From positions 434,001 through 498,000 of the forward strand of contig NZ_JALHLS010000001.1 in assembly GCF_022844445.1 (NCBI RefSeq): a stretch of 64,000 nucleotides of DNA, written 5' to 3'. The notes under the pieces were generated by a model. That model worked only from the letters and a program-made list of their open reading frames with translations, ran no database searches and was not told the origin of the DNA. The translations under genes and the position numbers were made by a program. Positions within the stretch are counted from its first letter, which is position 1, and every line of letters begins with the position of its first letter. The DNA comes from Hyphomonas sp. Its GTDB lineage: Bacteria > Pseudomonadota > Alphaproteobacteria > Caulobacterales > Hyphomonadaceae. This document shows, piece after piece, positions 43,806 to 48,728 of this stretch.

Positions 43806-43901
43806 ACCACTGAGCTGTCAGCGCTTCTGGCAAAGGGCTATTGCCTCCGCCGGAGTCTGGCCTATCCATCCTCGGCAAAAGCCGGGTCGGGGATCTTGGG
43901 G

Positions 43902-46406
43902 ATGCAAGTCGGGTTTGGTGCGGGGCCATTGGCTGATGAGCAGGCGCTGATCGCGGCGCTGCGTGAGGGGGCCTGGGCGGACCTGACATTGGCACCGGGA
44001 TATGACGCCGAGGTCAAACCGGTCGTCTCGGCCCGGTTCCTCCGGGACATGCTGCTCGGGCTCGATAGCCGCGTTGCCGGTCTCCCGTCGGGCCTGCGGA
44101 TTCGGGGTCTCCGGGTGGACGGCGATCTCGACCTCGCAGACTGCACCGCGCCGGGCGGCGGTGGCTTTGGCGTTGTCGCCCTTGAGCAGTGTGATTTCAC
44201 CGGCCGCATTGACATTACCAATGCGGAACTCTCCCGCTTTTCGATCCGCCAAAGCCGGTTTCGCGAACTCTGGGGTGAAGGCGTCAAGGTCAGCGGAGAC
44301 TTTGACTTCAGGGGCGCTTCTCCGTTGCCGTCGCCGGATGAGCCGGTGGCGTATATCCGCCTGCGGGCGGCACGGATCGGCGGCGATCTGTGGGCGCGCG
44401 GGGCATTGCTGAAATGCCCCGGGGACGTGCCGCGCGGCCTGACAATGGTGCCCCCGGCCTTGAACCTCTGGCTTGCCCGGATCGAGGGCAGCGCCCTGTT
44501 CGAGATGGGCTTCGTCGCTGAGGGCGTTGTGCGGATGTCGAGCGCCTTCATCGGCGGCGACCTTGCATTCAACGGCTCCACGATCAAGGGCCGCGACGGC
44601 CTCGCGCTCGATGCGGCCGGCGTCAACATCGGCGGCGAGGCAACCTTCGACCTGCTCGACGAGCGCCGCTTTGTTGCTGAAGGTGAAGTGCGCCTGTCAA
44701 ACGCCAGCGTCGGAAAGAATCTCAGTTTTTACGGCGCCTCCGTATCAAACCCTGACGGAGACGCGCTCGATGTCAGTGCCAGCACAATCGGCGGGCACGT
44801 TCGCCTGACCGTCGCCAGAGGTTACCGGTTCGAGGCTTGTGGCCAAGCGATCTTCTGGGACACGAAAGTCTCCGGCGACTTCATCTGCAACGGCGCGCGC
44901 CTGTCTGCGCCCGGTCGCACTGCGCTTGCGGCTGCAGGCATCCAGGTGGGTGGGCGGGCCGGCTTCGACATGGTCGATGGTTCGCGCTTTGAAGCTGAGG
45001 GCGAGGTGCAGCTCTCGAACTCGACCATCGGCAAGGACCTCGCTTTTTTCGGTGCGAACCTCCGCCATCCCGGCGCCGACGCGCTGGATGCCAACGCCTG
45101 CAGCGTCGGCGGCCATGTTCACCTGATGCCGATCGACGGGACGCGGTTCGAGGCCGAAGGGGCGTGCCTGTTTTGGGACGCGCGGGTCGCCGGGGACTTC
45201 GCGTGCCACGGCGCACGTTTGAACAATCCTGGCGGGCTCGCGCTCGCCGCCGCCGGTATCGAGATTGGCGGCCTTGCCAACTTTGATGCCTATGAGGATT
45301 TCCGGTTCGAATCTACCGGTGAAGTCAGGCTGGCCAATGGAAGCATCGGCAAGTCGCTCAGCTTTTTGGGTGCAGCGCTGAGCCATCCGGACGGCGACGC
45401 GCTGGATGCCAGCGCCTGCGCCGTCGGCGGCCATGTCCGGCTCGTCGCGATGAACCACCACAAGTTCGAGGCGGACGGCACGACCATTTTCTGGAAGGCG
45501 CGGGTGGCTGGAGACTTCGTCTGCCAGGGCGGCCGGTTCACGCGGCCCGACGGTGTAGCGTTCAATGCAAGCGCATGTTCCGTAGACGGCGGACTTTACG
45601 CGCATGACAACACGCTTGATGGTATCGTCGATCTGTCGAATGCCCGGATCGATACGCTGGGCAGCTTTGCCGACTCCGCCTGGTCCGGCGCCCGCCGCAT
45701 CCGCCTCGACAGTATCAGCCTGCGCCAGATCGAAGTAGACTCGTCCGACGGCGTGCCATGGCAAACCCGGACCCGATGGTTGAAGCGCAGCAGCGACCAG
45801 ACCGCCAAGGGCCATCGGATCGTATCCCCGCATCCGTGGCAGGAGTGCGCCGTCGCCTTCGCGCGGTCGGGCCGCCATACCGACGCACGCCGGATCCAGC
45901 GCGAAGGCTACCGTGAGGAAAACCGGGCCCGTCCGCTCTGGATCCGGCCGTTCGTCTGGGTGTTTGCGGAAGTTCCCTTCGGCTTTGGTCTTTCGGCGCT
46001 GCGTGCGACCGTGACGCTGATTGCATTCTGGATCGGCGGCATCGTGGGTGCCGAGGCCATGCTCGCGCGAAACGTGCTGGTCGACCTCTCGAGCCGCGGC
46101 GACCCGCAAGCCTGCCTGTCGCTTGTGCCGGCGCTTTACGCCCTGGATACGGCCATTCCGATCATCGACCTGCGTCAGGAGTCGCTTTGTGATCCGGCGG
46201 ATATCGGCCAGGCTGGCCTGTTCCCGGGTATCCCGCTCTCGCGCCTGGCCGGGGACATGGCTTTCCTGCCAGCCATGCCGGCGGTGACCTTGTTCGACGA
46301 AGTTACGCTTTGGACCTGGGCCAAGGCGGTTTACGCCTTGCTGGGCACCTTCCTCGTCAGCTTCGCGGGCATAACCTATTCGGGCGTATTCAAACCGAAA
46401 GAGTAG
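43902..46406 (+). CDS. Large repeat (beta-helix-like) protein with C-terminal membrane anchors
   Basis: 834 residues. Residues about 60-590 consist of repeats such as GDF-x-C-x-GA-x-L, EAEGEVQLSNSTIGKDLAFFGA and DALDAN-x-CSVGGHVHL, with a superperiod of 106 residues (counted between FEAEGEV and FESTGEV) made of two similar halves. This kind of repeat occurs in proteins annotated only as membrane-associated oxidoreductases. Two C-terminal transmembrane segments follow: around LRATVTLIAFWIGGIVG and KAVYALLGTFLVSFAGI. No signal peptide. A TTG six bases upstream is an alternative start. Function unknown. Confidence 0.75.
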   Translation: MQVGFGAGPLADEQALIAALREGAWADLTLAPGYDAEVKPVVSARFLRDMLLGLDSRVAGLPSGLRIRGLRVDGDLDLADCTAPGGGGFGVVALEQCDFTGRIDITNAELSRFSIRQSRFRELWGEGVKVSGDFDFRGASPLPSPDEPVAYIRLRAARIGGDLWARGALLKCPGDVPRGLTMVPPALNLWLARIEGSALFEMGFVAEGVVRMSSAFIGGDLAFNGSTIKGRDGLALDAAGVNIGGEATFDLLDERRFVAEGEVRLSNASVGKNLSFYGASVSNPDGDALDVSASTIGGHVRLTVARGYRFEACGQAIFWDTKVSGDFICNGARLSAPGRTALAAAGIQVGGRAGFDMVDGSRFEAEGEVQLSNSTIGKDLAFFGANLRHPGADALDANACSVGGHVHLMPIDGTRFEAEGACLFWDARVAGDFACHGARLNNPGGLALAAAGIEIGGLANFDAYEDFRFESTGEVRLANGSIGKSLSFLGAALSHPDGDALDASACAVGGHVRLVAMNHHKFEADGTTIFWKARVAGDFVCQGGRFTRPDGVAFNASACSVDGGLYAHDNTLDGIVDLSNARIDTLGSFADSAWSGARRIRLDSISLRQIEVDSSDGVPWQTRTRWLKRSSDQTAKGHRIVSPHPWQECAVAFARSGRHTDARRIQREGYREENRARPLWIRPFVWVFAEVPFGFGLSALRATVTLIAFWIGGIVGAEAMLARNVLVDLSSRGDPQACLSLVPALYALDTAIPIIDLRQESLCDPADIGQAGLFPGIPLSRLAGDMAFLPAMPAVTLFDEVTLWTWAKAVYALLGTFLVSFAGITYSGVFKPKE

Positions 46407-46412
46407 AGCGGC

Positions 46413-46784
46413 CTAACTATAATCCGCGATCCGGCAGAGCAGGGGCCCGCGGAACTCGAAAAAGCTCGCCCCGCGCACTTTTACGGTTTCGCCCGCCCGC
46501 ACGCCGTTTGGCAGGTCCACCGCCGCGCGGCCCTCGAACTCGATCTCCGCCGCCGCCTTGGCTTCGCTGGTCACCAGGTTGATCAGCCGCTGGCGGCGGT
46601 ACGAGAATGCATTGCCGGAGACTTCCGCCACCTGCCGCATCATGCCCTTGCCATCGAGGCGCATCGACTGGCCGGCATTCGAGATGTTCTCAAACACCAC
46701 ATCATCGGTCACGCAGGCCAGCATCGCGTCGATGTCCCGGTCATTATAGCTCGCGATGTAACGGCGGATGATCTCGTCCAGCAC
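46413..46784 (-). CDS. NTF2/SnoaL-like protein
   Basis: 123 residues from a GTG at 46784, chosen because AAGGA lies seven bases before it; the frame extends to another GTG at 46829. ASYNDRDIDAMLACVTDDVVFEN is the SnoaL-type cone-fold start (core DIDAMLACVTDDVVFEN). Members are enzymes or binding proteins of diverse roles. Divergent from the TIR-protease gene (about 120 bases apart) and convergent with the repeat-protein gene. Confidence 0.8.
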   Translation of the reverse strand: MLDEIIRRYIASYNDRDIDAMLACVTDDVVFENISNAGQSMRLDGKGMMRQVAEVSGNAFSYRRQRLINLVTSEAKAAAEIEFEGRAAVDLPNGVRAGETVKVRGASFFEFRGPLLCRIADYS

Positions 46785-46903
46785 TTGGTTGTCCTTGCCA
46801 CAGACCGAGTTACCTGCCTCACCGGGCACTAGCGTGCAAGCAATTCTGACTTCACCTTATCGCATCTTTGCGTATGTTTCAGAGGGGTTGTGGGAGAAGC
46901 GCA

Positions 46904-48652
46904 ATGGCGGATGTTTTTTTGTCTTACAGGAACACAGACGAGCGGCGGGCTATTGTCGCGCGTTTGGCGACCATTCTGCGAGCGCACGGCTTGTCGGTTT
47001 GGTGGGATTACGGTCTTGAAGCTGGAACTTCATTCAAGCAGCAAATCGAAGTCGAAATCACATCCGCAAAACTAGTCATTCCGGTTTGGTGCGAACAAAG
47101 CATCAAGTCTGATTGGGTAAAGCGGGAAGCGACGCTTGCTGAGGCCAAGCTACTTCCCATTCGTTTGCAGAAAGTCCAGCCTCCAGCAGGATTTGAGCAT
47201 CTGCATGCGCATCATCTCGAGCGTTGGGATGGCTCAATACTGGACCCGCAGCTCGATTCGTTAGTCAAAGAGATTTGTGAACGAACCGGACATGCATCCG
47301 AGTTATCTCCCGACACAAAGTCGGAACTCGCCAAGCTCCCACGGATCAACCCGCTGCGGTCTCCTGCAAGCGGCACGAGTTTGCCAAGGCGATTGGTGCA
47401 GGTTGCCGCAGCTTTTGCGCTAGCTGCTGGTGTATTGATCGGTGCATGGCACTTTGTTCCGGTGGTCCCGGAGGGTGCGTCCACAATTGAGCCTGATCCC
47501 ATCGCTTCATTGGCAGAGCCAGCGGATGTATCCAACACCAACTCTGCGGCGGCGGATGTGCCTTTTCATAAGCTTCAGTGGCACTTGGGTCCGGCTGAAA
47601 ACGGTGGCTCAGGCATTCAGGAGTATCGTCAGCGCACAGGAGCCAGCGGCAAGGGCGTGGTGATCGCGCAGATCGACACGGGCATCTATTTCCAGCACAA
47701 CGAATTCGTCCGGCACCCGGGATTTCTGCAAGGATTTGACTTTGTTTCTGATCCGGAAATGGCTGGTGATGCCGACGGCCCGGACAGTGACCCTTCGGAC
47801 ACTGGCATCATGTGTGATGCGCTTAACACTGACGGTGGTTCTGAGCTTCACGGGAGTTTTCATGCATCGGTTCTTATCGCCCGAGGCGAAGGGCGATCAA
47901 AGATGATTGGTGTCGCACCTGACGCGAGCATCGTACCCATCAGGGTAGTCGGAAACTGCGGCGGGAAGCTATCAGAGGTCAATCGCGGAATACTATGGGC
48001 AGCTGGCCTGGATGCGGGCCCAGGTGCCCCGATAAATCAGAACCCCGCAGATATCATACTTATCTCTCTTAGCCTGCCGTCTGAGTGTCCCGCATCTCTT
48101 CAGCGAAACATTGACGCTGCGCGCGCGGAAGGCGCGATTGTCATTGCAGGGGCGGGAAATACGCGGTCCTCAAAAAGCGAGACAGCGCCCGCTAGTTGCC
48201 GCGGTGTAATTTCAGTGGGCGCGACCGATCCGAGTGGGAAGCCAGCGCCATATACAAACAGCGGCGCCGATCTGATGGCGCCCGGAGGCGATAATACGGT
48301 TGATCGGAACCTCGATGGCTACCCAGATGGCCTAGTTGGGGCGAAGTATTCTGTAGACTGCCGAGCGGAAAGCGGGGCTAAAACCGAAGACTGCGACTAC
48401 TCGATCGAGACTGGGACTTCAGCGTCAGCAGCGATTGTGGCTGGAGCCATATCACTGGTAAAGTCAGCCAATCCGGACCTTTCGACAAAGGATGCGGCAG
48501 ATGTCGTGCTTCGAGCCACGCGCTCGATGGATGCCCGCCAATGTAGTCTTCCTTGTGAAGGCCGGTCCGATTTGCAACCGATACCCGGCCTTACGGATGT
48601 GTGCTTTGCAAACTGTGGCTTGGGCAGTTTGGATCTCTCGCAGGTTCCGTGA
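46904..48652 (+). CDS. TIR domain - transmembrane helix - subtilisin-like (S8) protease fusion
   Basis: 582 residues; GGGAGA precedes the ATG. Residues 1-135: TIR domain, MADVFLSYRNTDERR, WWDYGLEAGTSF, SDWVKREA with the Glu (75) expected for NADase TIRs. A basic PRRL then a helix (about 164-185) form one membrane span, so TIR is inside. Residues 250-540: S8 protease facing outside, with D258 (QIDTG), H316 (LHGSFHAS), oxyanion N419 (AGAGN) and S506 (GTSAS). Ten Cys in the protease half suggest disulfides. A sampled 60 bases (47041-47100) is 45% G+C against 63% in asd, hinting at transfer. Confidence 0.85.
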   Translation: MADVFLSYRNTDERRAIVARLATILRAHGLSVWWDYGLEAGTSFKQQIEVEITSAKLVIPVWCEQSIKSDWVKREATLAEAKLLPIRLQKVQPPAGFEHLHAHHLERWDGSILDPQLDSLVKEICERTGHASELSPDTKSELAKLPRINPLRSPASGTSLPRRLVQVAAAFALAAGVLIGAWHFVPVVPEGASTIEPDPIASLAEPADVSNTNSAAADVPFHKLQWHLGPAENGGSGIQEYRQRTGASGKGVVIAQIDTGIYFQHNEFVRHPGFLQGFDFVSDPEMAGDADGPDSDPSDTGIMCDALNTDGGSELHGSFHASVLIARGEGRSKMIGVAPDASIVPIRVVGNCGGKLSEVNRGILWAAGLDAGPGAPINQNPADIILISLSLPSECPASLQRNIDAARAEGAIVIAGAGNTRSSKSETAPASCRGVISVGATDPSGKPAPYTNSGADLMAPGGDNTVDRNLDGYPDGLVGAKYSVDCRAESGAKTEDCDYSIETGTSASAAIVAGAISLVKSANPDLSTKDAADVVLRATRSMDARQCSLPCEGRSDLQPIPGLTDVCFANCGLGSLDLSQVP

Positions 48653-48728
48653 GCTCCAGCCAACCCTGCTTTGACTTTGCTACCACTTGCGCCATAAGGC
48701 CCCGAAATGACCTGAGCAGGAGAGTATC

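Follow-up and report, generated by a model that had tools for sequence, protein, structure and literature searches.

What use would a bacterium have for a single protein that joins a TIR domain, a membrane helix and a subtilase of family S8? The question is raised by a gene in a 64,000-nucleotide stretch of a Hyphomonas genome (the window, by which we mean the whole stretch analyzed), which an earlier reading of the sequence alone had described as a one-gene TIR-transmembrane-subtilase protein. That layout is borne out: the ORF is unbroken from the ATG at 46904 to the stop at 48652, encodes 582 residues, and has matches to the Pfam families TIR_2 and Peptidase_S8 that both exceed the curated cut-offs. 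What can be read from the sequence of this protein, here called TIR-S8, is its architecture, predicted topology, catalytic residues, derived active-site changes and probable recent arrival as one gene. The interpretation that we favor, at a probability of roughly 0.45, is that TIR-S8 is a single-pass inner-membrane receptor that works from the outside in, with a retooled periplasmic subtilase as input and a cytosolic, NAD-consuming TIR as output. The features of the locus are as follows.

46904..48652, + strand: TIR-TM-S8 gene, 582 aa (ORF and Pfam domains)
46913..47224, + strand: TIR_2 domain, residues 4-107, with W71 and E75 (Pfam E 5.9e-18)
47393..47449, + strand: predicted single membrane helix, positive-inside, residues ~164-182 (hydropathy 2.04; Lys/Arg 3 before, 0 after)
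47450..47545, + strand: short linker, residues ~183-214 (sequence comparison with core subtilases)
47546..48649, + strand: S8 domain with D258, H316, N419 and S506; altered F319, S322, L386, S390, A510 and I511; ten Cys
46785..48680, no strand: inferred insertion; relatives have a non-homologous SnoaL/asd spacer here (blastn, two flanks separately)

The Peptidase_S8 match (E 3.4e-36) covers residues 249-539. Asp258, His316, Asn419 and Ser506 are all where the sequence-only reading had placed them, which gives the protein the Asp-His-Ser triad and oxyanion Asn of S8 peptidases, and Glu75 of the TIR is likewise retained at its position. The 15 residues before the helix (164-182) contain three Lys/Arg and no Asp/Glu, and the 25 residues after it no Lys/Arg and four Asp/Glu. 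These hydropathy and charge counts agree with the earlier prediction of a single helix preceded by basic residues, with the TIR inside and the protease outside, and the structure model has a low-confidence helix at residues 163-171. The S8 part contains the ten Cys counted previously (304-571), and the TIR part another two (63 and 125). Since the ten are shared with core subtilases that look like exported lipoproteins (see below), an oxidizing compartment is likely for the S8 part. Hydropathy, charge and the shared Cys predict a cytosolic TIR and an extracytoplasmic C-terminal domain. The structure model is weak at about 300-318, 326-334 and 477-503, stretches that span the catalytic His316 and end just before Ser506. 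Fold comparison covered the S8 part (rows 226-582), and the TIR fold is taken from sequence and model confidence.

A search for the architecture, which had been proposed as a check, found, among the matches listed, one further full-length TIR-S8; it belongs to another genus of the same family.

G047:C9:308774-310588 (loci L022/L087): second TIR-S8 copy, 50% identity over query residues 1-579

The identity value is that of the search tool, which reads through one TGA near the end of this copy (hereafter the G047 copy). Its frame stops some 32 residues short, at what is residue 550 of the window protein, which costs it three of the ten Cys. The two copies are 64% identical in the TIR and 50% in the S8 part, and both have positive-inside charges around the helix. 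The G047 copy has the composition of a native gene (GC3 0.839) and lies between flagellin-like and MaoC-like genes (named by eye). Because the same fusion occurs in another genus, a sequencing or assembly join is strongly disfavored, and together with the single open frame this led us to reject a frameshift or two separate genes. A third TIR-S8 was absent from the matches listed in 150 genomes, in the order (398) and in the class (385); these matches extend to about E 1e-23 in the order, with up to three candidates scored per genome in the order and class searches, and the genome sets of the family, order and class searches overlap. One candidate, in G149:C10 (match 1-280, frame of 821), proved to be a TIR-TM-TPR protein and another, in G273:C14, an S8 protein without TIR. 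The query matched 21 phage records, none with a single place covering 80% of it, and the best 15 of the 21 fell entirely within the S8 part. Among plasmids, 35 records matched, none of them covering 80% or reaching the TIR, and viral contigs contained no relative of TIR-S8.

How did the gene reach the window? Its overall G+C content is 0.56 (0.514 in the TIR part and 0.572 in the S8 part), and the sampled value of 45% reported earlier does not hold for the whole gene. The transfer deduced from it is nevertheless upheld on other grounds, namely a GC3 of 0.545 versus 0.772-0.851 in six neighboring genes and insertion into an otherwise conserved spacer. Homology of the flanks to relatives (blastn) is lost at about 46784 and found again from about 48670-48687, and the inserted segment contains the TIR-S8 gene alone. 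A SnoaL-like gene is found close to asd, with no TIR-S8 match, in 29/29 loci of other genus members; these loci were taken from a search for asd, a gene present in all 37 genus genomes searched, own included, with 30 loci at most being opened, our own among them. The low GC3 and the absence of the gene from this spacer in relatives make recent acquisition probable, and the simplest reading is that a single gene was inserted recently in place of the SnoaL/asd spacer. The listed start of the SnoaL ORF (window 46413-46829) is at 46829, within the inserted segment. As homology to relatives stops at about 46784, the true start is probably there and the promoter has probably been replaced. Beyond it, window positions 43896-46406 encode an 836-aa protein with internal repeats and a weak match to a pentapeptide family, its C-terminal part being hydrophobic. 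Among the 29 short loci, most of whose flanks stop short of this gene, three had a match to it near SnoaL.

The sequence-only reading had suggested a defense setting, and here the neighborhoods gave little. The window neighbors (SnoaL-like, asd, pentapeptide-like, amidohydrolase and others) had no match to PADLOC models in 12/12 cases scanned, and no thsA, the Thoeris partner, was found beside the gene among them by Pfam and PADLOC. Seven of the eight scanned neighbors of the G047 copy were also unmatched, a TIR ORF about 6 kb away lying outside the scan. Thus, apart from a weak PDC-M28B match (E 1.6e-4) in a ParA-like neighbor of the G047 copy, no other defense genes of an anti-phage island were detected among the scanned neighbors of either copy. 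Membership of Thoeris or another multi-gene system was rejected, as no partner genes were found beside either copy among those scanned. Since the scanned neighbors offer so little, it is domain class and rarity that would point to a role in defense. The short TIR ORF (L087:13570-14004), a second one about 6 kb downstream of the G047 TIR-S8, groups with the TIR of an own-genome TIR-TM-OmpA protein.

The S8 half belongs to a core subtilase lineage, which is present in 76/91 family genomes and 40/42 of the genus, both TIR-S8 hosts included, and S8-lineage matches at E 1e-25 or better occur in 82/150 genomes searched, own included. Most core subtilases are open frames of 650-940 residues that match the query only from about 184-232 onward, i.e., in the S8 part. 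Seven of these proteins examined whole have an N-terminal hydrophobic stretch with a lipobox-like Cys, which makes them putative lipoproteins, and a long N-terminal region whose end resembles an I9-type propeptide (by eye). The own-genome core copy (G000:C1:253332-254486), in which Pfam recognizes only Peptidase_S8, shares the S8 domain (42% identity) and the ten Cys with TIR-S8, and has about 355 residues from its lipobox-like Cys to the point where homology begins. It differs from TIR-S8 in its lipobox-like N-terminus, its long N-terminal region with a propeptide-like end, its motifs HGTHVAG and GTSMAAP, and the lack of a TIR; in TIR-S8, the place of the lipobox-like N-terminus and long pre-S8 region is taken by the TIR, the helix and a linker that is only about 32 residues long.

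We compared both fusions with 32 core-lineage S8 domains, two of which (L089 and L091) are from other families of the order. Each of the ten Cys of the window protein is kept in 31 or 32 of these domains, and D258, H316, N419 and S506 are invariant in all 32 and retained in both fusions. At 157 positions the core domains are at least 95% conserved; the window protein keeps 94 of these and the G047 copy 108. Both fusions depart at 36 of the 157, with the same residue at 19 and gaps in both at 3, one departure being due to the G047 truncation and the others leading to differing residues. Changes near the active site in both are H->F/L at 319, G->S at 322, N->L at 386, P->A/S at 510 and H->I at 511, as well as G->S at 390, where Ser is also found in one of the 32 core domains. 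Counted from the catalytic His64 and Ser221 of subtilisin, residues 319, 510 and 511 are its His67, Pro225 and His226, and residue 390 is what we take to be Gly127. Instead of the canonical HGTHxAG and GTSMAxP, the window protein has HGSFHAS and GTSASAA, departures from the HGTHVAG and GTSMAAP forms that had been spotted from the sequence; both motifs are also altered in the G047 copy (HGTLNAS and GTSMAAS), and the second His and the Pro are canonical in 32/32 core domains. Their recurrence in the second copy makes these alterations look like shared traits, not noise. The retained catalytic Ser, together with the shared active-site changes, points to altered chemistry more than to plain loss. 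The S8 half thus appears to be a conserved retooling of a core lipoprotein-type subtilase, without the long N-terminal region.

This origin lends itself to a modest explanation, in which TIR-S8 descends from the core subtilase and has some ordinary role in the envelope as an anchored protease, its TIR being only a membrane-side interaction module. The core enzyme is indeed common and present in both host genomes, and the window copy keeps all ten Cys. Such a protein would hardly be expected to have lost the long N-terminal region, to have changed 36 conserved positions, to have been acquired, probably recently, in one strain, and to have retained W71 and E75 of the TIR, and we regard this explanation as quite unlikely.

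The active-site changes also allow a chemical variant of the receptor, which we raise by analogy and consider rather improbable: a covalent sensor, whose Ser would attack a peptide while the altered residues slow or divert the second step, so that an acyl-enzyme or ligation product would cluster the TIRs and lead to NAD+ consumption. The residues concerned would be the Pro225 equivalent, replaced by Ala/Ser, and the changed equivalents of Gly127, His67 and His226. According to PMC7921005, the engineered ligase subtiligase combines P225A with S221C, and in a Cys221 background both Ala and Ser at 225 favor synthesis over hydrolysis relative to Pro. We offer the likeness as analogy rather than prediction, because the nucleophile Ser506 is still Ser.

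As for the TIR half, among 44 aligned related TIRs W71 is present in 41 and E75 in 41 (both together in 38/44), and both fusions retain the two residues. They line up with the W and E of four solved bacterial TIRs, including AbTIR, and both AbTIR and SARM1 use the counterpart Glu in catalysis. The residues expected of a TIR NADase, E75 with the neighboring W71, are therefore in place. The sequence match to solved TIRs (the AbTIR NAD(+) hydrolase, 8g83, and others) extends over residues 3-76; no protease is joined to the TIR in the solved chains, and TIR-S8 itself is a putative NADase.

A query with the TIR only (1e-20) found 36 places in 23/105 family genomes, two of them the TIR-S8 genes (G000 and G047); partners were counted at the 30 of 36 places whose loci were opened, the other six standing outside the count. 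By hydropathy only, a hydrophobic helix follows the TIR (at about 136-290) in 27/37 distinct TIR ORFs. These ORFs are from the own genome, family matches and some others, with the window protein excluded and the G047 copy included. Pfam analysis of 18 TIR proteins, the G047 copy among them, identified FGE-sulfatase, OmpA, WD40, Sel1 (in one case below the cut-off), TPR, CARDB, DnaJ_C and ParA/MinD-like partners, and named no family for the partner in several. The TIR-TM-TPR protein is from an order member, and its helix was checked separately. TIR-S8 shares with these TIR-TM-X proteins of the same family and order an N-terminal TIR_2, a membrane helix and a variable C-terminal part, extracytoplasmic by prediction in TIR-S8. 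It differs from them in that X is a subtilase with a full triad, found in 2/105 family genomes. DnaJ- and MinD-linked TIRs have no helix directly after the TIR, and L010 and L011, whose TIRs are close relatives linked to a MinD-like or FGE part, also lack a membrane helix there, so the membrane is not indispensable to this TIR clade.

The repertoire has some further peculiarities. At a threshold of E 1e-5, 18 TIR_2 matches are found in the own genome, versus 0-11 in 18 other genus members, although some of the weaker matches may be other flavodoxin-like proteins. One of its genes (L018:5889-9506/L007; G000:C2, ~309936-314600), coding for a long TIR, a helix and WD40-like repeats (by eye), adjoins the TIR-TM-OmpA gene. 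In an order member, five consecutive same-strand TIR ORFs have TPR-like C-terminal parts, again by eye (L090:5838-16002). A TIR is fused to DnaJ C-terminal and central domains at L061:1498-2850, and to a MinD/ParA-like ATPase at L010:8001-9554; in the DnaJ-linked TIR and its relatives L068 and L069, Gln replaces the TIR Glu.

Trees were built for both halves. In the S8 tree the two fusions group together (support 100/99) on long branches, which suggests that the S8 part arose once. Their position in the tree depends on a weakly supported fork (77/35), and in the clustering shuffle 180/500 were as low, as expected with two rows. In the TIR tree, the clade that contains both TIR-S8 TIRs (100/98) also takes in MinD-linked and FGE-linked TIRs, and exclusive sisterhood of the two TIR-S8 TIRs occurs in 0% of 200 bootstrap trees. 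A single fusion event thus receives no support from the TIR tree, and partner swapping by the TIR is evident from this shared clade. The long S8 branch (4.4), the motif departures and the truncated C-terminus of the G047 copy might also mark a chance fusion that is decaying and has no present function. We consider this very unlikely: the long frame is open in both genomes, the catalytic residues of both domains are retained across 50% divergence, and derived changes are shared.

We return to the outside-in receptor. In this mechanism, the periplasmic, propeptide-less subtilase would bind or cleave a peptide or protein signal, an event that would cluster the cytosolic TIRs; the clustered TIRs would probably cleave NAD+, and the outcome may be growth arrest or death under envelope attack by a phage or competitor. 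The direction of signaling, the NADase activity, the ligand and the arrest or death are what we infer. That the TIR would be the output and X the input is suggested by the constancy of the TIR across a changing X that looks mostly like binding modules, a view of X that is itself interpretive, since an FGE domain can be an enzyme and Pfam names no family for several of the X parts. The higher conservation of the TIR than of the S8 part between the copies also counts for this reading, as do W71 and E75 in both fusions, the positive-inside charges and shared Cys, the shared departures of the S8 part, the rarity of TIR-S8 and its probably recent acquisition. Counting against it are the retained triad, which fits an active protease effector too, the detection of two copies only, one of them shortened, the close TIR relatives that do without a helix, the TIR tree with its 0% for one fusion event, the weak stretches of the structure model, and the lack of defense genes near either copy among the neighbors scanned.

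The main rival turns the direction around, with a cytosolic TIR that senses or oligomerizes and a periplasmic subtilase effector that cleaves envelope or incoming proteins. The catalytic D/H/N/S are retained in both copies, and with no propeptide-like region left to restrain the protease, other control would be needed, which the TIR could provide under this scheme. Predicted conflict systems include subtilisin-family peptidases (PMC7159879). The X domains of other TIR-TM-X proteins are not obviously enzymes, and substrate-strand and active-site positions are changed in both copies, which is why we hold a TIR-controlled protease to be unlikely, if worth keeping in mind.

Among known systems, BlaR1/MecR1 offer a precedent for an exported enzyme domain turned sensor with an inner effector on the same protein, but their domains are unrelated to those of TIR-S8 and the comparison is an analogy only. 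Thoeris (ThsB TIR and ThsA) has the TIR class in common, TIR-S8 being a weak match to the ThsB model; unlike it, TIR-S8 is membrane-anchored and no second gene was found. Toll/IL-1 receptors are single-span proteins with a cytosolic TIR (PMC7075850), as is predicted for TIR-S8. Rather than an LRR or Ig ectodomain at an extracellular N-terminus, TIR-S8 has its TIR first, so the chain order is reversed, and an ectodomain derived from an S8 protease. No account of the TIR-TM-S8 layout, nor of the TIR-TM-X kind, was found among the papers listed on TIR architectures, mostly ones open without subscription, in keeping with the earlier statement that no named system is known to have this layout. Locally, TIR membrane proteins form a common family, and within it TIR-TM-S8 is a combination both rare and new.

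Should the outside-in reading prove true, bacteria build one-gene membrane receptors by swapping ectodomains onto an NAD-consuming TIR. Such proteins would be a counterpart of Toll-type receptors with the chain order reversed, a protease could then be recruited as the sensing part, and the TIR-TM-X repertoire would provide a tractable set for studying the envelope signals that they read.
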